64,000 bases of DNA. It comes from an uncultured delta proteobacterium. GTDB lineage: Bacteria > Myxococcota > Myxococcia > Myxococcales > 40CM-4-68-19. The position numbers were made by a program, and so were the translations under genes. Positions within the stretch are counted from its first letter, which is position 1, and the number at the start of each line of letters is the position of its first letter. Where the stretch lies: assembly GCA_903911145.1 (NCBI GenBank), contig CAIWCD010000048.1:207984-271983 (forward strand), written 5' to 3'. Under the pieces are notes generated by a model. It had not been told where the DNA came from. It worked only from the letters and a program-made list of their open reading frames with translations, and ran no database searches. Below, one piece after another: positions 8,578-56,900 of the stretch.

Positions 8578-8648
8578 CGATTTACGGACCGCCATGGGCG
8601 CGGCTTTGCGCAATTCCGCATCAAGCAGATGCCCAGCCGGACGGACGA

Positions 8649-11828: not shown

Positions 11829-11846
11829 CCATCGATTGAGTCTCGC

Positions 11847-11888
11847 CTCCGCCCGAGGGCAGCTTGCGCTCCACGCTCTCGGGCGGAG
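11847..11888 (+). terminator. Terminator-like hairpin after the barrel gene
   Basis: CTCCGCCCGAG (11847-11857) pairs perfectly with CTCGGGCGGAG (11878-11888) around a 20-base loop, starting 19 bases after the stop at 11828. There is no clear U-tract, so it may act with Rho or only protect the 3' end. Confidence 0.45.
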
Positions 11889-11892
11889 ACGA

Positions 11893-11921
11893 TTGACGCA
11901 TTGGTTCATCGCACCTACTCT
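11893..11921 (+). promoter_or_regulatory. Possible promoter of the cNMP-binding/pilT genes
   Basis: TTGACG at 11893-11898, a 17-base spacer and TACTCT at 11916-11921, about 50 bases before the GTG start at 11974. The -35 is good and the -10 weak. Confidence 0.35.
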
Positions 11922-11973
11922 GCCGCGCGCTTCAATCCGGGCCGCGCATCAGCCTCCTCCTTGCAGGTGAGTC

Positions 11974-12471
11974 GTGAACGAGATCAGCATCGACATCCCT
12001 GTCGTGCCCGGCGCTGATCTGCTGCAGCGCGTGCCGCTCTTTTCGAAGCTGGGCTTCGAGGAGACGATGCTGCTCGCGCGCATCAGCCACATCGAGCGCA
12101 GGCGAGACGGAGACCTGATCATCGCGCAGGATTCCCTCGGCGGCGCGCTCTACATCCTCAAGGACGGACTCGCGCGCGTGCGCGTGCATGAGCGCACGAC
12201 GAACCAGGTGCGCGAGGTCGCGACGCTCGTTCCCGGCGAGCTGTTTGGCGAGCTGACGCTGATCGACGACCAGCTCGCCTCGGCCGATGTCGTCGCCGTC
12301 GGAGAGGTCGAGTTGCTGGTGATTCCGCGGCGCGCGTTTGACGATCTGTTGAGTGCCAATCAACTGCTCGCGATCAAGATCTACCGCTGCTTCTGCCGCG
12401 CGCTCGCAGACAAGCTGCGCCGGGCGAACGTGCGCATCGGCGAACTCGGCCACCCTCCCGAGGCCGGCTAG
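11974..12471 (+). CDS. Cyclic-nucleotide-binding (Crp-like) domain protein
   Basis: 165 residues from GTG 11974, with AGGTGAG just upstream. It is a single cNMP-binding fold: LLQRVPLFSKLGFEE, the beta-roll ILKDGLARVRV, and VPGELFGELTLIDD corresponding to the phosphate-binding cassette. The usual Arg of the cassette (FGE-x-x-L-x6-RSA) is replaced by an SAD sequence, so cAMP binding is doubtful. There is no helix-turn-helix, so it is not a transcription factor by itself. It is adjacent to pilT: its TAG is followed directly by the pilT ATG, implying coupled translation and a possible regulatory input to type IV pilus retraction. Confidence 0.8.
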   Translation: MNEISIDIPVVPGADLLQRVPLFSKLGFEETMLLARISHIERRRDGDLIIAQDSLGGALYILKDGLARVRVHERTTNQVREVATLVPGELFGELTLIDDQLASADVVAVGEVELLVIPRRAFDDLLSANQLLAIKIYRCFCRALADKLRRANVRIGELGHPPEAG

Positions 12472-13548
12472 ATGGAGCAGCGAACGTTCAACCAGCTCCT
12501 CGCTGCTGCGGTGAAGAATGGCGCGTCCGATCTGCACCTCAAGGTCGGCGCCCCGCCTGCGCTGCGCATCAACGGCGCACTCATCGCGGTGAAGATCCCG
12601 GCGCTCGCGGCGGAGGATACGAAGAACATCGCTTCGTTCATTCTCCAGAGCGCGCGCTGGAAGGGCGAGCTGGATTCCGTGCGCGACTGGGACACCAGCT
12701 ACGCAGTGGAGGACGTCGGTCGCTTTCGCTGCAACATCTTCCGGCAGAAGGGCGACTTCGCGCTGGTGCTCCGCGCGATTCCGCTCTCCGTCCCGACCGT
12801 CGAGTCGCTCGGCCTTCCTCCCGTGGTGAAGTCGATGGCCGAGTTCGAGCGGGGCCTGGTTCTGCTGACGGGCGTCACCGGCTCCGGCAAATCCTCGACG
12901 CTCGCAGCGCTCGTGCGGCAGATCAACGAGACGACGCGCGCGCACATCCTCACCATCGAAGATCCGATCGAGTTCATCCACGAGGACAAGATCTCGCGCG
13001 TCGTGCAGCGGGAGATCGGACCGGACACGTCGAGCTTCCAGACCGCACTGCGCGCGGCTTTGCGGCAGGATCCCGATGTCATCCTCGTGGGCGAAATGCG
13101 CGACAGCGACACGATCGAGATCGCGCTGAAGGCGGCAGAGACCGGTCACCTCGTGCTCTCAACGGTGCATACGACAGACGCAGCGAAGACCATCTCGCGA
13201 CTCGTCGATGCCTTTCCCTCCGAGGCCCACGACGGTGTCCGGCATCGGCTCGCGGAGAATCTCAAAGGCATCATCAGCCAGCGCCTGCTCCCGCGCGCGA
13301 CCGGAAAAGGTCGCGTGGTCGCAGCCGAGATTCTGGTGACGACCGAGTCGATCAAGGAGTTCATCGTCGACAAGAATCGGACGCACGAGATCTCCGACTA
13401 CCTGGCGAAGAACCGCGACATCTATGGAACGCAGAGCTTCGATCAACATCTCTCCGAGCTCTACAAGGCAGGCCACATCACTCTCGACGTGGCGAAGGCA
13501 GCGGCGTCGAATCCGAGCGATTTCGAGAGGGCGTTGAGCTTTGAGTAA
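12472..13548 (+). CDS. pilT: Type IV pilus retraction ATPase, PilT/PilU family
   Basis: 358 residues. Motifs in order: N-terminal PAS-like part with ASDLHLKVG, Walker A GVTGSGKSST (about 134-143), Asp box LTIEDPIEFIH, Walker B DPDVILVGEMRD, and His box TGHLVLSTVHT. The hexameric cytoplasmic ATPase drives pilus disassembly and twitching or social motility. The C-terminus (TQSFDQHLSELYKAGHIT) is longer than in many PilT proteins and leans toward PilU, so paralogue identity is open. No other pil gene lies in the window. It is coupled to the cNMP-binding gene before it and overlaps the next gene by eight bases. Confidence 0.92.
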   Translation: MEQRTFNQLLAAAVKNGASDLHLKVGAPPALRINGALIAVKIPALAAEDTKNIASFILQSARWKGELDSVRDWDTSYAVEDVGRFRCNIFRQKGDFALVLRAIPLSVPTVESLGLPPVVKSMAEFERGLVLLTGVTGSGKSSTLAALVRQINETTRAHILTIEDPIEFIHEDKISRVVQREIGPDTSSFQTALRAALRQDPDVILVGEMRDSDTIEIALKAAETGHLVLSTVHTTDAAKTISRLVDAFPSEAHDGVRHRLAENLKGIISQRLLPRATGKGRVVAAEILVTTESIKEFIVDKNRTHEISDYLAKNRDIYGTQSFDQHLSELYKAGHITLDVAKAAASNPSDFERALSFE

Positions 13549-14095
13549 TCCGCTCACAGAGTCGCGGCGGACGCGCGGAGCGGGCCCGTTGCTCGTCCTG
13601 GCGTGCGCGCTGCTCGCCTCTTCTCCCGCGCGCGCGCAGGGCTTGTCGAACGACGTTCAGGATCTGCTTGCACCGAGCAACACCGCGCCCAGCAAGGCCG
13701 CGGCGATCGACGGCGGCACGAAGGCCAAGGCTGCGAGCGCGCCAGCGATGGTGATTGAAGAGACCGATGCGAAGGCAGAGCCACCGCCGCCCGTTCCGGT
13801 GGGCGAAGAGCGACGCGCGATCGGCGAGTACATCCACGGGCATAGCGACGACGTGCACGACTGCTATTCGCAGCGGCTGCGCGAGATGCCGGCGCTGCAG
13901 GGAAAGCTGATCGCGCGGTTCCAGATCGGTCCGTCGGGTCGCGTGATTGGCGCGAAGGCAGAGGGAATCAACGACGCGCCGCTGGCCGCATGCGTGGTGG
14001 CCGCCGTGCGCAAGTGGGAGTTCGAGAAGCCGGCGTCGGGCGGCAAGCTGAGCGTCGCGTATCCGTACATCTTCAAGCCGATCGCTGCGCAGTAG
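13541..14095 (+). CDS. AgmX/PglI C-terminal domain protein
   Basis: 184 residues from TTG 13541, which overlaps the end of pilT and has GAGAGG ten bases upstream. A signal peptide or anchor (GAGPLLVLACALLASSPARAQG) is followed by an Ala/Lys/Pro-rich linker with EPPPPVPVG, then a domain from about residue 85 with DVHDCYSQRLRE, FQIGPSGRVIGAK and CVVAAVRKWEFEKP. This is the TonB-like fold found at the C-terminus of myxobacterial AgmX/PglI motility proteins. The two Cys may form a disulfide in the periplasm. Proximity to pilT supports an envelope or motility link, by inference only. Confidence 0.7.
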   Translation: MSNPLTESRRTRGAGPLLVLACALLASSPARAQGLSNDVQDLLAPSNTAPSKAAAIDGGTKAKAASAPAMVIEETDAKAEPPPPVPVGEERRAIGEYIHGHSDDVHDCYSQRLREMPALQGKLIARFQIGPSGRVIGAKAEGINDAPLAACVVAAVRKWEFEKPASGGKLSVAYPYIFKPIAAQ

Positions 14096-14117
14096 CGCGC
14101 GGACAGCGAGCGGCACG

Positions 14118-15047
14118 ATGCGACTCAACGTCATCCCTTTCGGCACCAGCGCGGGCCGCCCGACCCTGCAGCGCGGCGCCTCTGCGCTCGCGGTCGTCGA
14201 CGAGACGGGCTGGATGCTCTGCGATTGCGGCGAGGGCGCGCAGCTCGGCGCGATGCGCGCGGGACTCTCGCTCGCCCGGCTCGATGCGGTGCTCATCACG
14301 CATCTGCACGGCGATCACTTCAACGGCCTCCCCGGGCTGCTCGGCTCGCTCGGCCTTGATGGGCGCAGTCGCCCGCTTCTCGTCGCCGGACCGCGCGGCA
14401 TCGGCAAGCTGCTCGAGGAGTTGGGGCGCGCGGGCGCGCTGGGTCTGGGCGACATGCCGATTGAGCTGATCGAACTCGAGGGAGACGGCGGCCCTCTGCC
14501 CTCGATTCGCGAGGGCTCGTCGCTCTCGGTTGTCGCGCGTCCGCTCTCGCATCGCACGCCGACATTCGGATTTCGCCTCTCGCAAGCAGACAGGCCGGGC
14601 ACGCTCGATGTCACAGCCGCGCGCGCCCGCGGCGTCTCGTCGGGTCCGCAATTCGGCGAACTCAAGGCGGGCCGCAGCGTGCGCCTCTCCGATGGAACGC
14701 TCGTCTCTCCTGAGGGTCTGATCGGTCCGGTCCAGCGCGGCACCTGCGTCGCGTACACGCTCGACACCGTGCCCTGTGCGGGCGCGATCGATCTCGGCCG
14801 CAACGCCGATCTGCTCGTCCACGAAGCGACCTACGAGCATGCCCGCGCGCAACTCGCGCATGAGCGCGGCCACTCAAGCGGGCAGGAAGCTGCGGAAGTC
14901 GCTCGCACTGCGGGCGCGCGCAGATTGCTGCTCACCCATTTCAGCCCCTCCGTCGACGTCAACGAGGTCGCCGCTGAGGCCCAGTTGATTCACGCGCAGG
15001 CGGTCGCCGCTCAGGACAACGAGCCTCTCGAGATCGTCAGCAGTTGA
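14118..15047 (+). CDS. rnz: Ribonuclease Z (tRNA 3' endonuclease)
   Basis: 309 residues, the short bacterial RNase Z form. A metallo-beta-lactamase fold with N-terminal GTSAGRPT, the metal-binding THLHGDH near residue 57, PLSHRTPTFGFRL, VHEATY and GHSSGQEAAEVA, and LTHFSPS near the C-terminus. All expected His and Asp ligands are visible. The enzyme removes the 3' trailer from precursor tRNA in the cytoplasm. The usual HFSPRY reads HFSPSV here. It starts at ATG 14118, 22 bases after the AgmX-like gene, and converges on the FHA gene at 15129. Confidence 0.92.
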   Translation: MRLNVIPFGTSAGRPTLQRGASALAVVDETGWMLCDCGEGAQLGAMRAGLSLARLDAVLITHLHGDHFNGLPGLLGSLGLDGRSRPLLVAGPRGIGKLLEELGRAGALGLGDMPIELIELEGDGGPLPSIREGSSLSVVARPLSHRTPTFGFRLSQADRPGTLDVTAARARGVSSGPQFGELKAGRSVRLSDGTLVSPEGLIGPVQRGTCVAYTLDTVPCAGAIDLGRNADLLVHEATYEHARAQLAHERGHSSGQEAAEVARTAGARRLLLTHFSPSVDVNEVAAEAQLIHAQAVAAQDNEPLEIVSS

Positions 15048-15128
15048 CGATCACGCAAAGGCTCACAAACCGCGCGCGACCGCACCCGGCGGCTGCGCGC
15101 GACTTCCCCAACACCGCTCGCGCGACGC

Positions 15129-27741: not shown

Positions 27742-28898
27742 GGCACTGCGCGGCCTTTCGTACCTTCCGCCGCAGTCGCTCCCGCACTTCCGCCTCCCCT
27801 CTGCTCCTCGCGTCGTTGCTGCTCTGCGCCCGCGCGGCAGAGTCGCACCAGACCGCTCTCTCTTATGCAGACCTCCGCGTGCAAGGCGCGCGGGTCGACT
27901 GCGATCTGCGCCTCGCCGCGGGCGACGCAGCCCGGCTCGCATCGATCGCTGTCAGCGCAGACGACCGCTCGATGCGCGACGCTCCCTCCGTAGTCACCGA
28001 TGCGCTCGTCCGCGCCCAGCGTGCTCCATTTTCATTCTCGGCCAACGGAGCCCCCTGCCCGCTTGAAGCGCGAAGCGCAACCGCCGCACCCGACGGCGAA
28101 GATGGGATCGTCCTCCGCGGCAGCTACCTCTGCCCCGCCACTGCAGTGCGCCTCGACGGGCGCGCCATCTTCCTCGACGATCTTCCGCCGGGCCACACGC
28201 TGCTGCTCAAGCTGGAGTTCGTCGCTCCCGGGGTTGCGAACAGCGCGACATCTCCGACCGAGCGCGTGCTGCAGCAGGGCGCGGCATCATTCTCTGCGCT
28301 CCGCACCAGCGACGCGCCCTTCGCCTTCGCCCGCTTCCTGCGCCTCGGCGTCAGGCACATCTTCACGGGCGCCGATCACCTCGCGTTCCTGCTCGGCCTG
28401 CTCCTGCTCGGCGGCTCGCTCGGCGCGCTGGTACGCATCGTCACGGCCTTCACCGTCGCGCATTCGCTCACGCTCGCGCTGGCCGCTCTCGAGATCTATT
28501 CGCCGCCAGCAAGACTCATCGAGCCCGCAATTGCCGCAAGCATCCTCTGCATCGCGATTGAAAACCTCTGGGCTCTGCGCCGCGATCACGCGCCCGATGC
28601 CGCCGCGCGCGCCCTGCGACATCGGTGGCTCGCGACCTTCTGCTTCGGCCTCATCCACGGCTTCGGCTTCGCAGACGCCTTGCGCGAACTGCATCTGCCG
28701 CGCGAGTCGCTGGCCGCAAGCCTGCTGTCGTTCAATCTCGGCGTCGAATTGGGCCAGGTGTGCGTCGTCGGAGTTGCGCTTCCAATGCTCGCGCGATTGC
28801 ACCACTGGCCGGCGTTTGCGCGCCGAGGACCACAAATCATCTCGATGGCCGTGGGCGCGGCCGGGACATTCTGGCTCGCGCAGCGGCTCATCGGATAG
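27738..28898 (+). CDS. HupE/UreJ-like membrane protein
   Basis: 386 residues from GTG 27738. A signal peptide, then an extracytoplasmic domain (about 35-185) starting SHQTALSYADLRV, and a C-terminal membrane part with six to seven helices. The hallmark HIFTGADHLAFLLGLLL stands near residue 210, followed by VTAFTVAHSLTLALA, LIHGFGFADAL and LSFNLGVELGQ, all conserved in the HupE/UreJ_2 family. Relatives are linked to nickel or other metal transport beside hydrogenase and urease genes, but no such genes are here. His and Asp in the helices could pass a metal ion. Confidence 0.82.
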   Translation: MRHCAAFRTFRRSRSRTSASPLLLASLLLCARAAESHQTALSYADLRVQGARVDCDLRLAAGDAARLASIAVSADDRSMRDAPSVVTDALVRAQRAPFSFSANGAPCPLEARSATAAPDGEDGIVLRGSYLCPATAVRLDGRAIFLDDLPPGHTLLLKLEFVAPGVANSATSPTERVLQQGAASFSALRTSDAPFAFARFLRLGVRHIFTGADHLAFLLGLLLLGGSLGALVRIVTAFTVAHSLTLALAALEIYSPPARLIEPAIAASILCIAIENLWALRRDHAPDAAARALRHRWLATFCFGLIHGFGFADALRELHLPRESLAASLLSFNLGVELGQVCVVGVALPMLARLHHWPAFARRGPQIISMAVGAAGTFWLAQRLIG

Positions 28899-28925
28899 CT
28901 GCTGCGCGAATCCTCGTTTTCGTCC

Positions 28926-31900
28926 CTATGCGCTCTGCAGTTCGCTCACAACTCGAGCTGGCGTCTCCACCACAGCGCCTGTGCCGACAATCGACGTCTG
29001 CTCAAACGCGAGCGGCACCTCCTGGTGGCAGCCATTGGGAACAACGCCGCGATAGGCCTCGACGCGAATCCGCTCTCCCTCCGCATATCGACGTGCCAGC
29101 GCGGCAGGAGAAAGCTCGTCGGCATTGCCCGCGCGATTATCCCGATAGGTCGTCTGCACGATATTGACCGGGTTGCAGAACGTCACCGACTGCTCGAAGC
29201 AGAGCAGGTCCGGCTGCGTCGCCGCATAGGAGACCGCGCGTTCCGCCATGCGCGCCTCGAGTTCATTCGGGTTGCGAAACGCGAGTTGCGAGATCAGCGC
29301 GTGCATATCCGCGGCGCGATAGAGCGAACTCGATACTTCGAGCGGATAACCGAAATCATGCTGGGAACCGACCCAACGGAATCGCTTCAATCCGTAGGCG
29401 CTGGCCATAGGAGGGACGCGCTGCTCAGCCCGCATCGTATAGCAGGAGGTTGTATTGCTCCCGAGGCGCAACGAGACCCCGAGCAGCTGGGGATCCATCC
29501 GCAGTGCATTCGAGGCTTCGGCCAGACTGAATGGGCGCACGACGATATTGTCGTCGACGAGAAAGAGGACCTGCTCATAGAGACCCAGCAGCCCAAGCAA
29601 CTGCGCGCGGAAATCCGTCTCGGTAATCAGCTCTACGCGCGGATGCTCCTGCCCGAGGCGGCGATAGAGCGCGCGGTGGCCATCGGTCGTCGCCTTCGTC
29701 AATACCTTGATGTCGGCATTCTCGGCCTCGCGCCAATGGAGCTGGAGCGAACGAAGCGTGCCGTCGAGCTGCATCTGGCGATCACGGCTGAACGCGAGCG
29801 CCAGAATCGGTGATCTGTTTGCACGCATCGTCGATTTGTCCGCGGCACGCGCGGCCGGTGCCGAAATGCGTGCGGGCGCGGCCTTGCTGATCTCGCGAGC
29901 GACCGTAAGCAGATTGGCGTTCTGCGGATGCCCGCTCAGGGCGGGTTCAATGGTGCGCGCAGCGCCTTCCACGTCTCCGCGGGAGAGCTGAATCATCGCG
30001 AGCGTGCACGCGATCTCCGGCGTATTCGGCGCGAGCGCAATCGCGCGCTGGGCATGCATGAGCGCATCCTGCTGTCGACCCGCACCGTTCAATACAACAG
30101 CGAGATCGTTATGCGCCTCCGCCGAATCGCTGCAGGCCGAGATGAACGCTTCCAATGCCGAGATGGCTCGCGGGTAATCAGCCGCATTCACCATCGTTTC
30201 AATCTGCGGCAGGAGCTCCTGGTATCGCGAAGAGGAGCCAACGCTGCGATTCTCTTCACTCTGCTTCAACGGACCGGCAGCGCCAGCCAGAGCGGTCCGG
30301 ATGGCAGCCTGCGTCTCCAGTGCCGTCGCATTATTCGGATCGAGTTCCAATGAGCGTTGAATCGCCTCCCCCGCCTGCCGGTATCGACCCGCGCTGTAAT
30401 CAATGACGGCGAGGTCGTTATATCCCTCTGCATAGGTCGGGTCGGCGAGGACCACGCGCGCCATCTGCTCGAGTGCCTCGGCATTCTTGCCGGCGCCAAT
30501 CAACGCGGTCACCGGCTTCATTCTCTCGCGATAAGCCGCGGCCCGCGCGTCCTTGCGCGACCGCGCGGCCTTGCGCTGCTTGGCCCGGATGACGTTCGCG
30601 GTCAGTCGCTGCAACGGCTCCGCGGCCGCATTGTCGCTGCGCCCAAGCATGCAGGTCGGACGCTGGACGTAGGCGAAGGAGTATCGGAGCCCGAGGCGAA
30701 GGCAGAGATCCCACGACTCCAGTGCGCCCAGAGATTCATCGAATCCACCCAACTCGCCGTTGGCCCCCAATTCAATCAGGCAACGCCGCTCATGCAGAAG
30801 GCACGAGAGCGGAATATAGGGCTCGGCAAGCATTCGCACGGCGTCGAACGTTCCGGTACGCAGCGGCTGTCCTTCAATCCCCGCGTCTCCTGCTTCGAGT
30901 TGCGATTCCAGCGACAGGGCATCCGAATATGCTGCCTGGCTCTTGCCATCCGAGAGCGCGTCCACGAGCGTCTGCAAATGCTCACGGCGATAGCAGTCGT
31001 AATCGTCGAGATAAGCGATATATCGGCCGCGCGCTGCCCGCAGCCCGAAGTTGCGCGCCCCCGCGGCTCCCCGCGCACGCGCCAGACGAAGCGATTGAAT
31101 CTTGTTTCCATGATCAATCGACGCAATCAATGCATCGACGCTCTCTCCACCGTCGTTCACCACAAGGATTTCGAAATCCTGCAACGTCTGGGCGAGCACG
31201 CTGCGCAGCGCCCGCTCGAGCGCTTGCGGGCGATTGCGTGTCGAGACAATCACCGACACGGTCGGCGCGAACGTGCGGCCGAGGACAGGATTTGCCTCCG
31301 CCCCGAGAATCCTCCAGGCGGCATCCTCTTTCGCCGGCTCAAACAACCCGGGGTGATTCAACACGATGATCCCGATCATCTTCGGCCGCTGCGCATTGCA
31401 CTCCGTGACCATGCTCTGCGCTGCAGTTCGATATCGAAACAGCGGCTGCGCGACCTTGTCGCCACGAAATCCGCGCCGCATCGCGTGCAGCCAGAACTCC
31501 CAATCCTCGTGTGAGAGGCGCCGCGTCGGATCATATCCCCCGACCGCATCCCAGACGCCACGGCGATAGAGCGAACAATAAGGAAGCTGGTTGTCTTGCA
31601 TCTCGGCATCGAGCTCGAACCGGCCCGTCTGCCAGATATCGGTCTTCAATCCAAAGAGCTGCACGTCGGTATAGGCGACCGAGAGCTCAGGACTGCGCTC
31701 AAGCAGACCGACCGTCGCTTCCAGCATCGTCGGCGCCAGCAGGTCGTCAGCGTCGAGCGGAAGGATATATCGACCCGACGACGCGCGAATGCCGTTGTTG
31801 CGCGTCTGGCCGAGCCCTTGATTCACCTGGCGCAGCAATCGGATTTTCCGTGCGGGATATCGCTCAATCAACGCCTGCGCCACCGCGGAGGTATCGTCGG

Positions 31901-32084
31901 GGCTGCCGTCATCGACGATGATGCATTCCCAGTCCGTATAGGTCTGGTTGACGATCGATTCGATGCAGCCCGGAAGGTATCCCGCATGCTTGTAGCAAGG
32001 GATGATGATCGACACCGCGGGCGCGAGAGACGAGTCGGCAGAGGCCATCCGTGGACTATGAGCAATCAAGGTGCCACGCGCCAT
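28926..32084 (-). CDS. Giant glycosyltransferase: GT2-GT2-TPR-GT-A-like
   Basis: 1052 residues from ATG 32084; ATG 32048 (MASADSS) is equally possible since neither has a clear ribosome site. Domain 1 (about 20-250) is a GT2 transferase with SIIIPCYKHAGYL, VDDGSPDDT and the DxD-type LPLDADDLL. Domain 2 (about 270-490) is another GT2, with VSVIVSTRNRPQALERAL, VVNDGG and AYLDDYD. A TPR region (about 520-730) with two clusters follows (LELDPNNATAL, IALAPNTPEIA). The last part (about 755-1000) has ILALAFSRDRQMQLDGTLRSL and LFLVDDNIVV, suggesting a third GT-A fold. It is cytoplasmic and probably adds several sugars to one acceptor. Divergent from the equally large gene at 32365. Confidence 0.82.
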   Translation of the reverse strand: MARGTLIAHSPRMASADSSLAPAVSIIIPCYKHAGYLPGCIESIVNQTYTDWECIIVDDGSPDDTSAVAQALIERYPARKIRLLRQVNQGLGQTRNNGIRASSGRYILPLDADDLLAPTMLEATVGLLERSPELSVAYTDVQLFGLKTDIWQTGRFELDAEMQDNQLPYCSLYRRGVWDAVGGYDPTRRLSHEDWEFWLHAMRRGFRGDKVAQPLFRYRTAAQSMVTECNAQRPKMIGIIVLNHPGLFEPAKEDAAWRILGAEANPVLGRTFAPTVSVIVSTRNRPQALERALRSVLAQTLQDFEILVVNDGGESVDALIASIDHGNKIQSLRLARARGAAGARNFGLRAARGRYIAYLDDYDCYRREHLQTLVDALSDGKSQAAYSDALSLESQLEAGDAGIEGQPLRTGTFDAVRMLAEPYIPLSCLLHERRCLIELGANGELGGFDESLGALESWDLCLRLGLRYSFAYVQRPTCMLGRSDNAAAEPLQRLTANVIRAKQRKAARSRKDARAAAYRERMKPVTALIGAGKNAEALEQMARVVLADPTYAEGYNDLAVIDYSAGRYRQAGEAIQRSLELDPNNATALETQAAIRTALAGAAGPLKQSEENRSVGSSSRYQELLPQIETMVNAADYPRAISALEAFISACSDSAEAHNDLAVVLNGAGRQQDALMHAQRAIALAPNTPEIACTLAMIQLSRGDVEGAARTIEPALSGHPQNANLLTVAREISKAAPARISAPAARAADKSTMRANRSPILALAFSRDRQMQLDGTLRSLQLHWREAENADIKVLTKATTDGHRALYRRLGQEHPRVELITETDFRAQLLGLLGLYEQVLFLVDDNIVVRPFSLAEASNALRMDPQLLGVSLRLGSNTTSCYTMRAEQRVPPMASAYGLKRFRWVGSQHDFGYPLEVSSSLYRAADMHALISQLAFRNPNELEARMAERAVSYAATQPDLLCFEQSVTFCNPVNIVQTTYRDNRAGNADELSPAALARRYAEGERIRVEAYRGVVPNGCHQEVPLAFEQTSIVGTGAVVETPARVVSELQSA

Positions 32085-32134
32085 TTTCTGGCACGTCGAT
32101 GAACACCTGCGAAACCGTCGCTGCCCTTACCGCG

Positions 32135-32158
32135 CCGTCACGCTTCTGGCGTCACGCT
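32135..32158. promoter_or_regulatory. Direct repeats in the divergent glycan promoter region
   Basis: CGTCACGCTT occurs twice, at 32135-32144 and 32149-32158 (14-base period). GACGC and GCGTC follow at about 32181-32192. The repeats sit between two divergent giant genes and could bind a shared regulator. Confidence 0.35.
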
Positions 32159-32364
32159 TTCCCGAACAAGGCCGTCCCATCTGACGCCAACAGCGTCCCG
32201 ACCGGTTGAACCGCTCATCGCGCGATGATTTCCGTCGTGTTTTGTGAGCTCTCGCTCCGGCATGTCGCTTGCTGAACCATCGCAGCATGAAAGGTGACTC
32301 CTCCGCTTTTGTTGACGACGCGTCGGTTCCCTCGTCTGTTGTTGCCCGTCGAAAAGAGGGCAAC

Positions 32365-35300
32365 ATGACGCTCGTTCCCGATGCCAGCAGTGCCCCCACG
32401 CCGAAATCGCCGCGTTACGCCGATGACGTGCGCCCGCAGGTTGAGCAGCTGCTCAACGCAGGGCACGTTGAAGCGGCCCTCAAGCATATCGAGGAATATA
32501 TCCTCGACGGCCACGAGGACGAGGAAGCGGTTGCGGATCTGGCGGTCCTCTACCACGTCAGCAATCGCCACTCGGATGCGCAGATGCTGCTGTCGGGATA
32601 TGTCGACACGCATCCGAACTGTATCCTCGCGCGCAAGCGGCTCGCTCTGGTCGAGTTGGTCCGAGGCAACGCCCCGATCGCGCTGGGCGTGATCGAGCCG
32701 GTGCTTTCCCTGGCGCCGAACGATCCCGAGGCGCTGCGCATCGTGGGTGAGATTGCCTCAGCGTTGAAGCGACCAGATCATGCGCGCTCGTTCTATGTCC
32801 GCGCCCTCGCGATCACGCCCGGCGATCCCGAACTCGCGGCGCTGCTCGCCGCCCTTCCCCCGCCGAGCGCAGCGCCGATCACGACCACGCCGGGTCGCTT
32901 CTCCGATCTGCTCGCGCTCGGCAATTTCTTCGAATCCGTGCCGGTTCCCTACGCGATCCTCCGCCTCTCGCCCGACTTTCCGCACTATGCCGTCAACGAG
33001 GATATCGACGTCCTCTGCGAGGACCGGGAGCAGCTGCGCGCGCATATCCGCGAGGTCGGACGCCGATATGAATCGCAGGGATTCCGCGTCGAGGAGACGA
33101 TTCACGACGGGCACCTGCATATCGATTACTTCGCGCCCCGCGAGCAGCGCCTCAACTTCCGGTTCGATATCCTCGATACCCTGTCCGGCTTCCACAAGAT
33201 CAAGGTCGCTGCAGATTGGACGCGCACCCTGCTCGCGCGCAGCCAGCGCGTCACACAAGGCGGCGTCGCGATCTCCGTTCCGTCTGCGCAGGACGAGCTC
33301 GCGCTGCGCCTGCTTGAATATCTCGAGCACCGCGATATCCGCCCGGACAAGGTGAAACACCTCCAGCATGTGCTCGCGGCCGGCACGACCGACTTCCTCC
33401 AGCCGCTGGCGAAATATACCGACCTGAAGCTCTCTATCGGCAACGGGGCAGTCTCCACCGACCTCGCCATTTCGCCGTCGGGACCTGCGCTGCCGACGAA
33501 ATCACCGCAGACCCGAATGGACTATTTCCTCATCTGGGGTCACGGTCTGTCGCATACGCGCGAGATCCTCGAGATCATCCGCTCGCACGGCGCGTTCGAT
33601 ATCGTCGCCGTCTATCGACGCAACGTCGGTGATATGGCCCGCTTCGTCCAGCGCGTCTATGAATGCGACGCGGTTCCAATGGAGCATCTGATCGCGAAGA
33701 CGAAGTATCTGCTCACCGTCCCGTCCGACGTGCTCCTGGTGGTCGCGAACAACAAGCAACCGCGCGAGAAGTATTTCGGCGAGGGCGCGTTCCGGCATAT
33801 CCAGTGTCAGCAAGTGAAGGACGTCAAAGAGATGATTCGCGATCGCTTCAATCCGCGCATCAACGGGAAGCGGACGGAGAATCACGTCATCCATGCCTCG
33901 GATTACGAGAGCCAGACCGAGCACGTCCTCAAGGTGATGGGGCTTCCTCCCGTCGCGCAGTTCCGACGCGAGGCCAATTCCAGTCTTCTCACGCCGCATC
34001 ATATCCAGCCGTTCACGAACTACTTGATTCACGAAGTACCCATCGAACAGCTTCGTGCGAATATCCTCGGGCAGGGCACTGTTACCATCGAGGCCACGCC
34101 GCACTATCAGTATGCTCGCGGCAATCGGACTCCCTATATCGACTATCAGGCGAAGTATGCGGGCAATCAACTCACCGACGATCACTATCCGGAGGCATTC
34201 GACCGGCTGATCGCGAGCTATGATCCCGCAGCCGACCAGCGCGACGGCAAGGTCAGCCATATCCTCGCCCTTCGGCGCGCCGAGGGTGGATTTCTCATCA
34301 TCGACGGCGTGCACCGCGCGGCGATTCTGGCAGCGCGTGGCGTGCGGACCATCACCATCGCGGAGCCGAACTTCACGCCCGGTTCGAGCGAACCCAGACC
34401 CGGCGTCGGCGACGCGGTCGCGGTTCAATCCAACGCAAGCGCAGCGCGTGCGTTTGTGAAGAATGGATTGACCCAGAGGAGCAACGGGAAACTCGAATCT
34501 GCGTCTGGCCCGGGAAGTTCGGTCGCTGCCGCAGCGAATGCGATCGGGTTTCTTCGCAAGATCATTACCGAGCACAACGTTCGCAGCATTCTTGATCTGG
34601 GCTGTGGCGATTGGAACTGGATGAAGGAGGTCGGCCTGCACGACCTCGGCGTCCATTACACCGGTTGGGATATCGAGCCTGGCCTGATCGCGGACCTCAA
34701 CGCGAACCATGGACGCAAGGAGATCCGTTTCGAGGCGCACGACGTTCTGCAGACGCCGCTGCCGAAGGTCGACCTCGTGATCTGCCGCGATATCCTCTTT
34801 CATATCGACGTCAATTGGGGTGCACGTCTGGTCAAGGCGATCAACGCCTCCGGAACGCGGCTCTTCCTCGCGACGAGCTTTCCCGGCGTCGTCGAGAATT
34901 CCAACATCAAGAGCTACAACCAGATCGAAGGCTGGGGCTTCTACGAGACCAATCTCGATATCGCTCCATTTCAGCTTGCTGCGAAGAAGGTTGCGTTCAT
35001 CGACGAACCGCTCTGCAAGCATGGCAACTACGACCGCACGATGGCGCTCTATCAATTGAACGGCCGCGCCGAGTCGATTCGCAACCCGACCGAAACAGCA
35101 GGTCGTGCCGATACCGTCTGGATGTATTGGGAAGGCGCGATGCCGACCTATGTCGATATGTGCATCGACTCGATCAAGCGCAACGCCCATATGCACGTCG
35201 AGTTGCTCAACCAGCAGTCGGTCAAGGAATGGCTCCCTGATCTGCGACCGGATATCTGGCTCGTCCGCGAACCCGCGCATCGCGCTGATTACATTCGTGC

Positions 35301-36507
35301 ACGCCTGCTGCATCGCTATGGCGGCGTCTGGGTCGATGCGGATTTCATCTGTCTGCGCTCTCTGCGGCCATTGCTCGACGAGGCCGCGGCGACCGGATTC
35401 GCCTGCTCGGGCGCGCAAGCCGGTTCACCGTCGATCTGGCTGCTCGCCTCGTCCCCCGCGAGCAAGCAGACGCTTGGTTGGATTCAGGCAATGGACGCGA
35501 TCCTCGATCAGAAAGGCGCGGACGCGAAGCTGGACTGGAACGAACTCGGCGGCCTGCTCCTCGCTTCAATCGTTGCGTCGACGGGATATCAACATATCGA
35601 GCGCAGCAACTTCGGTTGGATTCCCTGGGATCGCTCCGCGGAGATCTTCGAGCCGGAAACGGCTGCGGCGAGCGCCTTTGACGGTTATGGCTTCGCGCTC
35701 TTCAACAAGATGATCGGCCAGCGTCTCGCATCTGCGAGCAAGGTCGAGCTGCTCTCGGCGCCGACGTTGCTCGGCAGTCTGTTTCGTCGCGCCTATAGCT
35801 CCCCATTGAACGATCGCTCGACGGCACCGACGGGATATCAGGCCTCGAAGACCTGTCAGATCCCCGGCCTTGCGCAGATCTATGAGCAGTATCTCGGCTT
35901 CAAGACCGACGGCACGTTCGTCGAGGTGGGCGCCTTCGACGGCGAATATGTCAGCAATACTTCGAACCTCGCAGACCTGGGCTGGTATGGGCACTATATC
36001 GAGCCCGTGCCGGACCATGCGGCCGCGTGCCGCAAGCGACATGCGAAGAACAAGAATACGAAGGTCTTCGATCTCGCGATTGCAGAGAAAGATGGGGAGG
36101 CCACGATCCACGTCGGCGGGCCGCTCTCCACGATGGACCCGGAGAGTCTGCGTCTCTATCAAACCTTCGATTGGGCGCAGGGCTATCACTCGGGCAAGGT
36201 GGTCAAGACGCGGCAGACCACACTCGATCAGTTCCTGCGGTCGGCACAGATCCAGCCCGGCTTCGATCTGCTGATCGTCGACGTCGAAGGATACGAGTGG
36301 AACGTCTTTCAACGTTTCGATATCGCCCACTGGCAGCCGCGCATGGCGATCGTCGAGCTGCACGACGAGGCCGAGGCCTACGTCTCGATCCGCGAGAGCT
36401 GCCTGAAGGTCGCGCAGCTGTTTCGCGATCACGGCTATCGACCGGTGTTCAAGGACGGGACGAACACGGTGTTCCTGCGCACGGAGCCCCTGCGCAAGAC
36501 GTCGTGA
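32365..36507 (+). CDS. Multi-domain glycan-modification protein (TPR, NTase-like, ParB-like, MTase, GT, FkbM)
   Basis: 1380 residues from ATG 32365, chosen for AAGAGGG four to five bases upstream; starts at 32269 or 32287 lack a site. Order: TPR-like helices (20-165); nucleotidyltransferase-like fold (180-335) with VNEDIDVLCED and HIDYFAPREQRLNFRFD; an unrecognised domain (386-545) beginning DYFLIWGHGLSHTREILE; a ParB-like segment (562-672) with LIIDGVHRAAILAARG; a class I methyltransferase (727-822) with ILDLGCGDWNWM; a DxD sugar-transferase (917-1112) with TVWMYWEG and DYIRARLLHRYGGVWVDADF; and an FkbM methyltransferase (1162-1372) with FVEVGAFDGEYVSNT and LLIVDVEGYEW. No signal peptide or membrane helix. 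Probably assembles and O-methylates a surface glycan, in partnership with the divergent giant glycosyltransferase. The domain combination is unknown to me. Confidence 0.8.
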   Translation: MTLVPDASSAPTPKSPRYADDVRPQVEQLLNAGHVEAALKHIEEYILDGHEDEEAVADLAVLYHVSNRHSDAQMLLSGYVDTHPNCILARKRLALVELVRGNAPIALGVIEPVLSLAPNDPEALRIVGEIASALKRPDHARSFYVRALAITPGDPELAALLAALPPPSAAPITTTPGRFSDLLALGNFFESVPVPYAILRLSPDFPHYAVNEDIDVLCEDREQLRAHIREVGRRYESQGFRVEETIHDGHLHIDYFAPREQRLNFRFDILDTLSGFHKIKVAADWTRTLLARSQRVTQGGVAISVPSAQDELALRLLEYLEHRDIRPDKVKHLQHVLAAGTTDFLQPLAKYTDLKLSIGNGAVSTDLAISPSGPALPTKSPQTRMDYFLIWGHGLSHTREILEIIRSHGAFDIVAVYRRNVGDMARFVQRVYECDAVPMEHLIAKTKYLLTVPSDVLLVVANNKQPREKYFGEGAFRHIQCQQVKDVKEMIRDRFNPRINGKRTENHVIHASDYESQTEHVLKVMGLPPVAQFRREANSSLLTPHHIQPFTNYLIHEVPIEQLRANILGQGTVTIEATPHYQYARGNRTPYIDYQAKYAGNQLTDDHYPEAFDRLIASYDPAADQRDGKVSHILALRRAEGGFLIIDGVHRAAILAARGVRTITIAEPNFTPGSSEPRPGVGDAVAVQSNASAARAFVKNGLTQRSNGKLESASGPGSSVAAAANAIGFLRKIITEHNVRSILDLGCGDWNWMKEVGLHDLGVHYTGWDIEPGLIADLNANHGRKEIRFEAHDVLQTPLPKVDLVICRDILFHIDVNWGARLVKAINASGTRLFLATSFPGVVENSNIKSYNQIEGWGFYETNLDIAPFQLAAKKVAFIDEPLCKHGNYDRTMALYQLNGRAESIRNPTETAGRADTVWMYWEGAMPTYVDMCIDSIKRNAHMHVELLNQQSVKEWLPDLRPDIWLVREPAHRADYIRARLLHRYGGVWVDADFICLRSLRPLLDEAAATGFACSGAQAGSPSIWLLASSPASKQTLGWIQAMDAILDQKGADAKLDWNELGGLLLASIVASTGYQHIERSNFGWIPWDRSAEIFEPETAAASAFDGYGFALFNKMIGQRLASASKVELLSAPTLLGSLFRRAYSSPLNDRSTAPTGYQASKTCQIPGLAQIYEQYLGFKTDGTFVEVGAFDGEYVSNTSNLADLGWYGHYIEPVPDHAAACRKRHAKNKNTKVFDLAIAEKDGEATIHVGGPLSTMDPESLRLYQTFDWAQGYHSGKVVKTRQTTLDQFLRSAQIQPGFDLLIVDVEGYEWNVFQRFDIAHWQPRMAIVELHDEAEAYVSIRESCLKVAQLFRDHGYRPVFKDGTNTVFLRTEPLRKTS

Positions 36508-36985
36508 GCGTCGCCCCGTTCGCCCAGCGTCGAGGCCGGGCAGGTCCGCTGCGGCGTGGTGACGCATCAGCGTGCGAAAACGCCGCAGTAAATACGTCAA
36601 AAAGCCTTTCTTCCTTGACAGGGAACCCCGCGGCAGCGTTCAGTGGCCGCGATGATTTTTTCCCGCCCGAATCGCGCGCGCTCGCACCCAGTCTCACTTT
36701 GCGCGCACTCGCCCCTTCTGAAGGGAGGTCCGAGAACACCTGAACAAGACTGATCCGCGTCCGTCCCGTCGTCCGGACGAGCGCGGCTCGGCGAACCCGA
36801 AACCACACGTTTTCTCGAGCTGGCTTCAGAGACGAACCGACGAGATTGCAACCGCTTGTGACCCCGCAGCAGCCGATTCGCCGCAGGCACAAGATTCAGA
36901 CTTAAGACTTTCCGCGTTTGTGTCGAACATACGAAGAGGCAGAAGGCCCTATGCCTCGAAACCGAAATTTCCCCATGGAGGAAAC
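36508..36985. other. Long intergenic region before the RTX lipoprotein
   Basis: 478 bases without a convincing gene. It holds a nested stem GCGGCGT / ACGCCGC at 36551-36586 that may end the preceding transcript, a TTGACA at 36615 without a partner -10, a 12-base perfect palindrome TCGTCCGGACGA at 36769-36780, and CTTGTG / CACAAG arms at 36855-36893. The last 130 bases are probably the 5' untranslated leader of the next gene. Confidence 0.5.
36769..36780. promoter_or_regulatory. 12-bp perfect palindrome, possible operator
   Basis: TCGTCCGGACGA, about 205 bases upstream of the RTX lipoprotein start. Nothing else identifies the binding protein, and short GC-rich palindromes arise by chance, so this is weak. 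Confidence 0.25.
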
Positions 36986-39900
36986 ATGAAATTGATCACT
37001 AGGAGCGCAGCGCTGGTTGCCACGGTATTGGCAACCCTCGCAGCTTGCGCACCCGCCACAGACACTCAGAGCAACGCGCCCGAAGGAGACCTCCGTGGAG
37101 TGGAGGAGCTCGGCCACACCGCAGCCCTGACCGGCCTCGCCTCGGGCGAAGTCACCTTCGTCGCCACCAGCGGCGTGATGGCCATCGCGCCCGTAGCCGA
37201 GACGCTCGTCGTCGTATCGAAGCGCGCGTCGGACAGCGCGATCCTCGTCAACGGCAAGCCGCAGCTTGACACCCTGAAGGCCGCGTTCGCGAACTCGACC
37301 ACCATCAAGCGCATCAACCTGACGGTTGGCGCGAACAACACCACCGTTATCTTCGACTACGCCAACGGCACGTTCAACGCCAACACCGCGCCGGTCTCGC
37401 CCGCGCTCTTCGGCACCGGCGGCTCGGTGGTCACGTTCGGCAGCCACACGGGCTGCACGTTCAAGCTCCGCGGCACGTCGGGCAACGACACCATCTACGT
37501 CGGGCAGGACGCGACCCCGAACGCCTTCATCTCGTTCTCCGCGGCGCACCCGGACATCGAGATCATCACGAGCGCTGCGCCGGCGATGGGCTTCAGCCTC
37601 GGCGCGGGCAACGACACGTTCCTCGCGACGGCGGGCGCTGCGGCGTTCACCACCGTCATGGGCGCGGGCACTGTGATGCACTCGTTCGGCGCGTCGATCA
37701 CCATCCACGGCGGTCTCGGCAACGACACCATCCAGGGTGGCTCGGCTGCTGACACCATCTACGGCGAAGAGGGCTACAACACGGTCGACGAGAGCACCGA
37801 CTCGGCCACCACCCACGTCGCGGACTACGTCTATGGTCTGCCGGCGAATGAGAACAGCACCTGGGGCGCGACCACCGTCACCTACGCGAACTGGGCCGGC
37901 GCGTCGGGCGTGAAGGTCGACCTCGTTCACATCGCGGGCGCCGGCCAGGTGGCCGCGGCGACCACGTTCGGCGTCACGGACTTCCTCGACGACACCGTTG
38001 GCGTCGTCATCGGCAGCCCGCTCGCAGACACCATGCAGTGCAGCCAGCTGACCGACATGCCCTGCATCCTCCAGGGCGGCGCGGGCGACGATACGCTGAC
38101 GCCTGGCGTGTCGACCACCAACACGCACTACCTCTACGGCGGTGATGGCAACGACACGTTCGCGATGAGCGCGGCGGCCACCAACGTTGTTCTGACCGGT
38201 GGAAACCTGACGGACGTGATGACCAGCGCCGACTCGGGCGTGTCGAAGAACCTCTACACCGACACGGTTGACTACAGCAGCCAGGTTGCAGCCGCGACGA
38301 TCAGCATGAACGTCCAGCCGCCCGTGACCTGCAACGTTACCGACGGTGGCAACCTCCCCTGCCCGCCGAACGTCGCGTCGCCCGCAGTTGGCTCGGGCAT
38401 CGGTGGCAGCGCGCTCACGTTCATCCGCAACGACATCACCGTGGCGAAGTGCCCGACGGGCTTGACCTCGGCTGGCCTCGTCTGCACCGTGACGGGCAAC
38501 AACCAGGGCAACACCATCTACTCGGGCTGGGGCTCGGATGCGCTGACCGGCGGCACGGGCGACGACACGTTCGTGATCGCCGACTTCAACCTCGCCGCGA
38601 ACTACTTGGCCGCGACCAAGGTGATCACCGGCGGTGGCGGAAGCGACTCCGCTGACTTCTCGGCGCACACCTCGCCCACCGTCATCAACCTGAACGGAAC
38701 GGCGCTCAGCCCCACCAACTCGGGCTTCCCGTTCGCGCTGACCTCGGTTGACCGCACGGACTACGCTCCGTTCGCGTCGGCAGCGGCGGTTGCCTCGGCA
38801 ACGGCGAACACCAAGCTCAACACCGACTACGCGGCGATTGCGCTGGCTTCGCGTACCGCGAACGACACTGCACTGAAGAACGCGGCGAACCAGACCAACA
38901 CGGACGCCGCAGCGGTCTCGGCGGCGATCACCACGTGGCTCGGAGACCCGAGCGCGGGCAACGCCACTGCGGTTGCCACGGCCAACTCCAAGCTGACTGG
39001 TGCAAATCTGACCACGCTGAACGCGGCGTACTCTGCGTCGGGCGTGTCGGACTCGGCAACAGTGAAGGCGGATGCGCTGGCGGTCAAGGCGGCAGAGGCC
39101 ACGATGGCGGCGGCGGCTGCAGCCGTGGCGTCGCTGGCTGGTGACATCGCGTCGATGACTGCAGATTACAACGCGACCTACGCCACCGCCAACGACACGG
39201 CGGAGTACCACGCAGCGGTTGCGGCGGTTACCGCGGCCAATGCATTGTCGGTAGCGGTCACTGCGGCCAACACGTCGCCGACTGCGACGAACACGGCACT
39301 GGTGGCCACCGACTCGACCGCCCTGATCGCAGCGGTTGCCGCCCTGAACACGGCGACCACTGTTGGCGCTGGCGGTTACACGGCTCCGACGGCGTCGGCG
39401 AAAGACACCGTCACCATCCTCTCGGGCAGCGGAGACTACACTGTGACCATCGGCGGAAACGCCGTTGGCCCCGTTGCATACATCACTGACGACACCACGA
39501 CTGCGGCGGCGATCGTCACCGCGATCGGCCTCGTCGCTCCGGCGAGCGCACTCGTCACCGCGACGTCTGCGCTCGGCGTCGTTACGCTGACTGCGAAGCA
39601 CGCTGGTGCCGGGATGAATGCAGTCGCCGTTACTGTAACGCAGACGGGAGCTGGTGCAACGGCAGCCACCGCAACGCTGACCGGCGGCATCGGTGACACT
39701 GCCTCGGTCAACGCCGATGCAATCGCCATCAAGACCAACGCCAGCGCAGGTGCGGCGTCGGCTGCGGGTGCGGCGTTCACGACGGTCTCCGAGCAGATTT
39801 CGCTGCTCGGGATCAACAACGCCGTCTGCCCGGCGTCGGCCAGCAACTCGGCCTGCGTCGTGACCAGCAACGCCAACGTCGACCTGATCGACTTCAACGG

Positions 39901-39994
39901 CGACAGCACCGCGAACGGGTCGTCGCTGACCTGCGAAGGCAGCGGAGTCACCACGGTCAACGCGCAGAACCTGACCTCCAACTGCGGAGGCTAG
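36986..39994 (+). CDS. RTX-type calcium-binding repeat lipoprotein
   Basis: 1002 residues from ATG 36986, with GGAGG five bases upstream. A lipoprotein signal (LVATVLATLAAC) precedes a beta-rich body. Calcium-binding nonapeptides GGxGxDxxx occur in scattered groups: GGLGNDTIQGG near 245, GGAGDDTLTPG near 370, YGGDGNDTFAMS near 390, GGTGDDTFVIAD near 530. From about 595 the sequence turns into Ala/Thr/Asn-rich heptad-like stretches (TANTKLNTDYAAIAL, AVAAVTAAN) with few other residues, ending in a small Cys-containing cap. RTX proteins are usually secreted by a type I system without a signal peptide, so a lipid-anchored version is unusual; no such exporter is nearby. Probably a surface structural or adhesive protein. 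Confidence 0.78.
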   Translation: MKLITRSAALVATVLATLAACAPATDTQSNAPEGDLRGVEELGHTAALTGLASGEVTFVATSGVMAIAPVAETLVVVSKRASDSAILVNGKPQLDTLKAAFANSTTIKRINLTVGANNTTVIFDYANGTFNANTAPVSPALFGTGGSVVTFGSHTGCTFKLRGTSGNDTIYVGQDATPNAFISFSAAHPDIEIITSAAPAMGFSLGAGNDTFLATAGAAAFTTVMGAGTVMHSFGASITIHGGLGNDTIQGGSAADTIYGEEGYNTVDESTDSATTHVADYVYGLPANENSTWGATTVTYANWAGASGVKVDLVHIAGAGQVAAATTFGVTDFLDDTVGVVIGSPLADTMQCSQLTDMPCILQGGAGDDTLTPGVSTTNTHYLYGGDGNDTFAMSAAATNVVLTGGNLTDVMTSADSGVSKNLYTDTVDYSSQVAAATISMNVQPPVTCNVTDGGNLPCPPNVASPAVGSGIGGSALTFIRNDITVAKCPTGLTSAGLVCTVTGNNQGNTIYSGWGSDALTGGTGDDTFVIADFNLAANYLAATKVITGGGGSDSADFSAHTSPTVINLNGTALSPTNSGFPFALTSVDRTDYAPFASAAAVASATANTKLNTDYAAIALASRTANDTALKNAANQTNTDAAAVSAAITTWLGDPSAGNATAVATANSKLTGANLTTLNAAYSASGVSDSATVKADALAVKAAEATMAAAAAAVASLAGDIASMTADYNATYATANDTAEYHAAVAAVTAANALSVAVTAANTSPTATNTALVATDSTALIAAVAALNTATTVGAGGYTAPTASAKDTVTILSGSGDYTVTIGGNAVGPVAYITDDTTTAAAIVTAIGLVAPASALVTATSALGVVTLTAKHAGAGMNAVAVTVTQTGAGATAATATLTGGIGDTASVNADAIAIKTNASAGAASAAGAAFTTVSEQISLLGINNAVCPASASNSACVVTSNANVDLIDFNGDSTANGSSLTCEGSGVTTVNAQNLTSNCGG

Positions 39995-53959: not shown

Positions 53960-56900
53960 TTATTTCGCCACAGCCTCCGCGACGATTGAGCCCGTGCTTT
54001 CTGTTTCGCCCCCGACGGCCGTGACTGAATAGTAGTAGAGCACGCCGTCTGAGAGTCCCGCGTTGTTGTAACCGGTTCCGGAAACCTGAGTCAGGAACGT
54101 TCCGGTCAGTGCGGAGACATCAGAGAAAGTGGAACGGTAGATATTGTAGGCAGTCGCTCCAGGCGAGGCGGTCCAACTGAGCGAGATTGTCGGGATCGTG
54201 GCGCTCGGGGTTGCAGTCAGCCCCGTCGGTGCGAGGAGCCAGCCAGGGTTGGAGGTGAGGCTCGCCACCGGCGTGTTGCTCTGGGCGTGGGAATTGTTCC
54301 CAAGTTCGCCGTTGAAATTGCCGCCCCATGCGCAGACGGTACCATCAGACTTCAGCGCCACCGTTTCATCATAGCTTGCACTGATCGCGACCACCCCGCT
54401 GAGAACCCCCGGGACTCCCTCTCCCGCCACCTGCACCGGCGTCGAGCTGTCGGTCGTCGAATTGTTCCCGAGCTGGCCGTCGAAATTCCACCCCCAGGCC
54501 CAGACAGTGCCGTCAGATTTCAGGGCGACCGTGTGGTATGCACCTGGAGCAACCGCCACGATGCCGCTGAGGACTCCGACCCCTCCCGAACCGAGCACCT
54601 GAACCGGGACGTGGCTGTCGGTGGTCGAATTGTTCCCGAGTTGGCCGTAGTAGTTGAAGCCCCACGCCCAGACGGTCCCGTCTGACTTCACAGCGAACAT
54701 GTTGCCATAATTCGCTGCAATCGAGACCACTCCGCTCAGCGTCCCGACGCCTCCCGCGCCCACCACCTGCGCGGGCCATCTACTCTGGTTGGTCGAACCG
54801 TTCCCGAGTTGGCCGTTCCCGTTGTTGCCCCACGCCCAGACTGTGCCATCCGATTTCAACGCGACGCTCTCATTCATTCCCGCAGCGATCCCGACGACGC
54901 CGCCCAGAACACCCGAACCCCCGGCTCCCAACACCTGCACCGGCAGATGGCTATCCGTGTTCGAGTTGTTCCCAAGTTCGCCGAGGACATTGTCTCCCCA
55001 TGCCCAGACAGTGCCATCCGACTTCAGCGCCACCGTGTGCGCGTCCCCTGCGGAAATTGCGACAACGCTATTGAGAACTCCAACGCCTCCTGCTCCCAAT
55101 ACCTGCACAGGAGCATGACTATCGGTGGTCGAGTTGTTCCCGAGTTGGCCGTTGGAATTGTCTCCCCACGCCCAGACAGTGCCATCCGATTTCAGCGCAA
55201 CTGCATGCTCTTGCCCGGCCGAGATCGCAACGACGCCACTGAGAACTCCGGCTCCTCCCGAACCCCGCACCTGCACTGGAATAGCGCTGGCGGTAGTCGA
55301 GTTGTTCCCGAGATGACCGTGGTTGTTGTACCCCCATGCCCAGACCGTGCCGTCCCCCATGAGCGTAACCGAATACCCGGTGTTGACCCCGGTCGCGCTC
55401 GCCACTGCGACCACCGTGTTCGGTGTCGCAGAAATCTGTCCGGAGACCGTCTCTCCCGTCGCATGCACGGCCGTGACGATCAGATAGACGGCCTGTCCAT
55501 TGGGCAGCCCCGTCAAGGGATAGGGAGACGTCACTCCTGAGATTCGTGTCCCATTCGCGGGCGTCACTCCAGAAACGGCACTGTAGTAGAGATTGTAGGA
55601 ACTGGCTCCGAATACGGAATTCCAACCGACGACGACGTCGCCTCCACCAACTGTCAGTACGACCAGTGTCGGCGGCACAAGCAGAGATTGGGCCGTCGCC
55701 ACCAAAGACGGGGTGCTCTCCGTAGCGCCGCCGACGGCAGTCACGACATAGTAATAACGGGTGCCATTGATCAGGTTGGTATCGTGGTTGAAGCTCGTGC
55801 CGGATACGGTAGTCACCAGCGTGCCGTTCAGCGGCGATACATCCGGGTGGGTCGATTCATAGACATTGTAGGCAGTCGCTCCGGAGGACGCGGTCCAGGA
55901 GAGCGAGACTGCGAGTGACGTCGTGCTCGCAGTGGCGGTCAGGCCAGTCGGCGAGAGGAGCCAGGATGGCGTGGCAACAAGACTCCCCACCGGCGTGCTG
56001 CTCTGGTTGTTGGAACCGTTTCCCAGTTCGCCAGAGGTACTGTCTCCCCAATCGCAGACAGTGCCGTCTGACTTCAGCGCGATCGTGTGATTCAGACCCG
56101 CGCTGATCGAGACCACTCCGCTGAGAACTCCCCTGCCGCCGCTTCCCTGCACCTGCACTGGAGTCTGACTATCAATGGTCGAATTGTTCCCGAGTTGCCC
56201 ATATTGGTTCCATCCCCACGCCCAGACGGTTCCGTCGCCTTTCAGCGCAACAGTGTGCATAGAGCCCGTGGCGATCGCGACGACGCCGCTCAGAATTCCC
56301 ACCCCTCCAGTTCCCAGCACTTGCACAGGCGTGTGGCGATCGCTCGTCGAATTGTTGCCGAGTTGGCCGTAGAAATTATATCCCCACTCCCACACAGTGC
56401 CGTCCGCACCCAGAGCGACACTGTGCCCATATCCCGCCGCAACTCCGACGATGCCGCTGAGAACTCCCGAGGCCCCGTTCCCCTTGACCTGCACGGGCGA
56501 GTACCTGTTGACGACTGTATTGTCCCCGAGTTGACCGCTCCAATTTCCTCCCCAGGCCCAGACAGTGCCGTCCGACTTCAGCGCGACCGTGTGGTCGCCG
56601 CCCGCGGCAATCGCAACAACATCGCTGAGCACTCCCGCACCTCCGCTTCCAACCACCTGTACCGGGACATTGCTTTGGTTGGTTGTCCCATTCCCGAGTT
56701 GGCCGTTCTGATTCGAGCCCCACGCCCAGACAGTGCCGTCCAGCTTGAGAGCGACGGTTCGCTTATTGCTCGCGGAAATCGCAACCACGCCACTGAGAAA
56801 TCCAGCGCCGCCGGCACCCAACACCTGCACTGGAGTATCGCTGTTGCCGGTCGAATTATTCCCGAGTTGGCCGTTGATATTCCATCCATAGGTCCACACG

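Follow-up and report, generated by a model that had tools for sequence, protein, structure and literature searches.

The window, that is, the whole 64,000-nucleotide stretch of DNA that was analyzed, contains two divergently oriented genes whose features are collected in Table 1. We confirmed that the plus-strand gene is a real, continuous and modular frame, so the claim of the original prediction that many glycan-related modules lie in a single frame was borne out. The frame begins with an ATG at 32365, preceded by the ribosome-site-like AAGAGGGCAAC, and runs with zero internal stops to a stop codon at 36505-36507. Coding-like G+C by codon position was observed for each module, indicating that the frame is one gene. 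The interdomain linkers of the translated sequence were enriched in Pro, Ala, Ser, and Thr, and no membrane segment was suggested in the protein, in which the best 19-residue mean hydropathy was 1.35. Misassembly, which had been named in advance as one possible refutation, was judged unlikely and rejected, because an independent planctomycete protein (L031) carries modules A, B, and C contiguously and in the same order, with 46% identity across residues 179-685. Hereafter, these three modules are called the trio.

Table 1. Features of the two divergent genes in the window
Feature	Position	Strand	Basis or size
Divergent neighbour, GT2-GT2-TPR-E	28926..32084	-	1052 aa
Module E (neighbour residues 751-1043), unclassified, transferase-like, DDN motif	28956..29834	-	
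Divergent intergenic region, 280 bp	32085..32364	.	ORF coordinates
Multidomain protein, TPR-A-B-C-MT-GT-FkbM	32365..36507	+	1380 aa
TPR repeats, residues about 28-164	32446..32856	+	Pfam TPR_14 1.5e-8, TPR_19
Module A, nucleotidyltransferase (NTase) fold, DxD plus third Asp, residues 180-360	32902..33444	+	Model pLDDT 90.7
Module B, nucleoside-diphosphate-kinase (NDK) fold, as modelled, residues 383-540	33511..33984	+	B-C model pLDDT 85.7
HVIHASD, residues 507-513, counterpart of NDK N-x-x-H-G-S-D with catalytic His	33883..33903	+	Joint alignment with NDKs
Module C, ParB/SerK-like, residues 546-672 (DGVHR at 34303-34317)	34000..34380	+	Profile search
Class I SAM methyltransferase, residues 689-897	34429..35055	+	PHROG 3382 1e-49; Methyltransf_25 8e-8
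DxD sugar transferase, residues 907-1145	35083..35799	+	Caps_synth 1.7e-11, Gly_transf_sug 3e-7
Module D, FkbM methyltransferase, residues 1158-1372	35836..36480	+	Pfam 4e-23 (match residues 1187-1359)

Pfam, NCBIfam, and PHROGs were then searched. These gave good scores for the TPR repeats, the class I methyltransferase, Caps_synth/Gly_transf_sug, and FkbM, and no good-scoring match for residues 180-685. The FkbM profile (PF05050) reached 82.7 bits, over its cut-off of 22.7. Furthermore, the FkbM domain was 46-48% identical to those of two trio-carrying relatives (L032 and L027) versus about 32% or less to the other FkbM domains examined, indicating that an FkbM clade travels with the trio. 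A co-located homologue of the DxD sugar transferase was also present in L029.

When residues 170-700 were used in single-sequence searches, no convincing match emerged from the order, the phylum, plasmids, phages, or viral contigs. The window genome itself was the sole confident return for this middle region, and the weak matches, including a ribosomal protein and a tRNA synthetase, were rejected as chance. The first true relative, L027 (47% identical over B-C), was recovered when viral contigs were searched with a degenerate artificial alignment, in which presumed motif residues were kept and the rest varied; this alignment served as a search probe only, and all later alignments hold real sequences exclusively. 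Seven further independent loci with enough flank were obtained beyond the window: one from Planctomycetota (L031, Sedimentisphaerales), two from Patescibacteria (L032, Paceibacterota; L033, Uhrbacteria), and four from IMG/VR viral contigs (L027, L029, L030, and L051/L054). The viral contig L048, which ends within the locus and has B only, stands outside this count. The B profile matched one genome in each of three sets (193 genomes of the window's phylum, 347 of the planctomycete class, and 380 of the Patescibacteria phylum), the weaker matches being chance, and a two-pattern search of 84,980 genomes gave at least 3 loci. The exact full domain order of the 1380-aa protein was not found in any other sequence examined.

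Comparison of the loci showed that A and B-C are separated by no more than a few kilobases in all eight, whether fused or separate, and in shuffled order. The window protein and L031 carry A-B-C fused, the latter as a 2276-aa protein (8270-15097) in which an unassigned N-terminal part is followed by A-B-C-E and three GT2 domains, and L027 encodes A-FkbM-B-C-E. Separate genes for BC and then A were found in L032, L033, and L051, and also in L029 with two genes between them, and L030 has C separate and B-A fused. In an all-against-all comparison, A and BC were the sole families present in 8 of 8 loci. GT2 was found in seven, FkbM in four (one match weak), and GT11, a fucosyltransferase family, in five (L029, L030, L032, L033, and L051); in L029, L030, and L051, GT11 immediately precedes the gene that contains B. 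Because the loci were recovered by B or A queries, the query module is present by construction, but the other is not. The A profile gave one match per genome or record in the relatives, indicating that the proximity of A to B-C is not chance; residues 170-700 likewise gave one match in the window genome.

The relatives are surrounded by glycosyltransferase, nucleotide-sugar (GDP-mannose dehydratase), or polysaccharide-export genes. The gene order in L032 is Bac_transf, ABC-2 permease, Wzt-like ATPase, FkbM, BC, A, and GT2, and in L033, BC and A come right after the gene of a Wzt_C-domain ATPase. The trio loci are thus loci of glycan biosynthesis, with a Wzm/Wzt-type exporter adjacent in two, and the glycan setting proposed from the window alone was supported.

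Next, we analyzed the modules of the trio individually. The sequence match of module A was weak (NTP_transf_5, E 0.01). Its AlphaFold model best matched 5uvd among PDB folds (E 5e-4), with further matches to 2ewr (E 0.01) and, weakly, FKRP. In alignment A9, D43, D45, and D84 were invariant and represent the D-x-D plus third Asp, and no conserved equivalent of the G-[GS] motif before the D-x-D was seen. A has the fold, the D-x-D, and the third carboxylate of pol-beta-type NTases. That it produces an activated precursor, as originally suggested, is a guess.

Module B had been described as an unrecognised domain. This stood at the level of sequence, as neither PF00334 nor any other Pfam family matched it, but not at the level of structure. 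B is confidently modelled as an NDK fold: 50 of the 50 PDB matches listed were NDKs (best E 2e-6, probability 1.0, target-normalised TM about 0.6). Against a viral library, the same model matched NDK-like proteins and annotated glycosyltransferases of Catovirus and Yasminevirus. The motif H-x-x-H-[AGS]-[ST]-D is strictly conserved across the relatives, with His and Asp invariant, and the joint alignment with NDKs shares H-[AG]-[ST]-D with the active-site His, together with Tyr and Arg; these invariant residues (His, Asp, Arg, and Tyr) are likely catalytic. In contrast, the NDK I-K-P-D reads I-W-G-H in B, Lys being replaced by Trp in all relatives, and the Asn of N-x-x-H is replaced by His. The NDK strand-1 motif I-I-K-P-D-G reads I-I-W-P-H-G in L048 and I-W-G-[HN]-G in the other relatives. 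The alignment thus suggests that the catalytic His is kept while the NDK Lys and Asn are replaced, so B may be altered or degenerate, and canonical NDK chemistry is doubtful. HH alignment of shallow profiles of B and NDK did not rise above shuffled controls; the relation is, therefore, a claim of structure and motifs.

Two further observations concern this fold. The B domain of L048 (9938-10525), located terminally on a 38-kb contig that IMG/VR assigns to viruses, has I-I-W-P-H-G-V and H-G-T-D and is intermediate between the trio-B family and NDKs. The fold search also located NDK-like domains within annotated giant-virus glycosyltransferases (A0A1V0SAX2, A0A5K0UAL1, and A0A481Z0W0), a likeness to B known from model matches.

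For module C, the profile search returned SbnI (E 2e-4) and then SerK (0.07), and ParB-domain structures were also matched. Similarly, the C region of the B-C model matched ParB/sulfiredoxin folds in the viral library. C has the fold and the D-G-x-H-R box of the ParB/SerK superfamily. This box is invariant from Myxococcota to Patescibacteria, and the D-G-V-H-R strand-helix region is identical in SbnI. The nearest relations of C are SbnI and SerK, which are kinases of free serine, and we regard C as a putative kinase. It differs from them in its glycan context and in that the SbnI alignment is limited to the C-terminal part, with the first half of C unaligned and the catalytic Glu of SbnI/SerK not located. 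A sulfiredoxin identity was rejected since the conserved cysteine is absent. No ParB helix-turn-helix follows C; a methyltransferase, a transferase, or the chain end is found there instead. The NTase and ParB-like folds expected in the middle region were thus recovered by fold and profile searches (5uvd for A; SbnI and SerK for C), and all the named modules (TPR, NTase fold, ParB-like, class I methyltransferase, DxD sugar transferase, and FkbM) gained support. Beyond that first view, we found two things, namely the NDK fold of B and the conservation of the NTase, NDK-like, and ParB/SerK-like modules as a trio.

The trio unit reaches past the 1380-aa frame, because the glycosyltransferase-like module E of the divergent neighbour has counterparts in L031 and L027 that follow C without a gap in the same fused protein. 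The neighbour's E (about 290 C-terminal residues) is 43% and 33% identical to these segments, respectively, and a 27% identical copy lies on the L030 contig. The neighbour is, therefore, very likely part of the trio system, and the proposal that one polypeptide does the work alone was not sustained. The TPR segments common to both divergent genes share 32.5% identity, and the pair GT2-GT2-TPR-E and TPR-A-B-C-MT-GT-FkbM holds most of the single-chain content of L031 and L027. No sigma-70-like promoter was found in the region between the two genes.

From the observed folds, conserved residues, co-occurrence, and glycan context, we propose, with a probability of roughly 0.4, a glycan scaffold in which the trio adds a phosphate-containing group that is then methylated. 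The 1380-aa protein and its partner would form a cytoplasmic glycan-assembly scaffold, the two probably being held together by their TPR repeats. The chain would be extended by sugar transferases, namely the DxD transferase here and GT2, GT2, and E in the partner. A-B-C, with an NTase fold, an NDK fold with its His, and a SerK/ParB-like kinase fold, would make a phosphate-containing group and attach it to the chain, either as a substituent or as a terminal cap, which the FkbM and/or class I methyltransferase modules would then methylate. What we infer here are the activities of A, B, and C, the glycan itself (and not just its precursors) as their target, and the sequence of steps. A transfer by the trio itself is favored because the loci do not all have any one cognate transferase family in common. 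More specifically, A-B-C may be an NTase, an NDK-derived histidine phosphotransferase, and a SerK-type kinase that form a new phosphate-containing glycan linkage or cap. This three-enzyme reading, which would cover scattered, mostly uncultured bacteria and elements classed as viral, is tentative.

Alternatively, the modules might regenerate a sugar donor: C would phosphorylate a sugar or alditol, A would couple it to an NTP, the glycosyltransferases would use the product, and B would remake the NTP from the NDP set free, with every step on a single scaffold. The four activities fit one cycle, and the kinase-like, NTase-like, NDK-fold, and glycosyltransferase modules are physically joined. We consider this doubtful, however, as a specialised donor would require a transferase specific to it and no single specialised glycosyltransferase family occurs in all loci, an ordinary NDK is already encoded in the window genome, B has lost NDK residues, and pol-beta-type NTases usually modify hydroxyls. 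It is unlikely that B and C have lost catalysis and serve as nucleotide sensors that time chain assembly, leaving A, the glycosyltransferases, and the methyltransferases as the only enzymes. Such a role would agree with the replaced Lys and Asn of B and with the ParB fold often being an NTP switch; the accessible part of a survey of ParB-fold fusions describes several that bind CTP, ATP, or GTP and mentions methyltransferase fusions, with no mention there of a glycosyltransferase fusion of the trio kind (PMC12704722). Nevertheless, the His and Asp of the NDK-like motif in B and the D-G-x-H-R of C do not vary across the range from Myxococcota to Patescibacteria, which suggests catalysis. A peptide, protein, or small-molecule target instead of a surface polysaccharide is improbable: a kinase and NTase-like pair phosphorylates and then glycosylates the lasso peptide pseudomycoidin (PMC9266682), and neither an initiator gene nor a glycan exporter was found beside the two window genes, but the relatives adjoin Bac_transf, Wzm/Wzt, GDP-mannose dehydratase, and many glycosyltransferases.

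With the trio adding a phosphate group that is methylated, the window system would resemble WbdD and ORF6-O7, two chain terminators of the methylphosphate type, with unrelated enzymes. The kinase and NTase-like pair of pseudomycoidin is a further precedent. In E. coli O9a, WbdD phosphorylates the terminal mannose and then methylates the phosphate, thereby terminating the chain (PMC3482155). The likeness lies in a cytoplasmic multidomain kinase-methyltransferase acting on a glycan end with a sugar-transferase partner, an activity that is predicted for the window protein. However, WbdD consists of a eukaryotic-type kinase and a coiled coil, whereas the window protein has the NTase, the NDK fold, the SerK/ParB fold, TPRs, and built-in glycosyltransferase and FkbM modules. 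As for the WbdD-type layout, with kinase and methyltransferase beside Wzm/Wzt, exporter and FkbM genes directly adjoin the trio in L032 and an exporter does so in L033, and none does in the window. Wzt_C had no match in the window genome, and GT11 was not found there in a search without a positive control. According to the accessible part of its report (PMC11231755), ORF6 of Klebsiella pneumoniae O7 (MT-kinase-coiled coil-GT2-GT2) unites polymerase and terminator modules in a single chain, and its kinase could not be recognised from the sequence; the window protein, as proposed, is alike in both respects. That kinase is AmiN-like, and NTase, NDK-like, ParB-like, and FkbM modules are not described in that part. 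The trio is a member of neither family. No description of it was found in a literature search, and the real novelty is this conserved, rare, and apparently undescribed set of domains. If the proposal is true, it would bring in kinase and nucleotidyltransferase chemistry based on folds that are seldom associated with polysaccharides. Three domains that are poorly annotated or unannotated at the family level would acquire a common role open to testing, and a compact locus of two genes would allow chain building, phosphate transfer, and methylation to be taken apart.

The G+C content was 0.59-0.65 over 28.5-36.5 kb of the window, spanning both divergent genes, compared to mostly 0.66-0.69 around it. 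Acquisition from elsewhere would fit this difference, and 28500-36500 is a possible island. Adjoining it, a plus-strand ORF of 1024 aa with an RTX calcium-binding repeat match was observed at 36920-39994, overlapped on the opposite strand by a 1076-aa ORF without a family match. Farther along the window, the minus strand holds an open frame of 3330 aa at 53960-63952.
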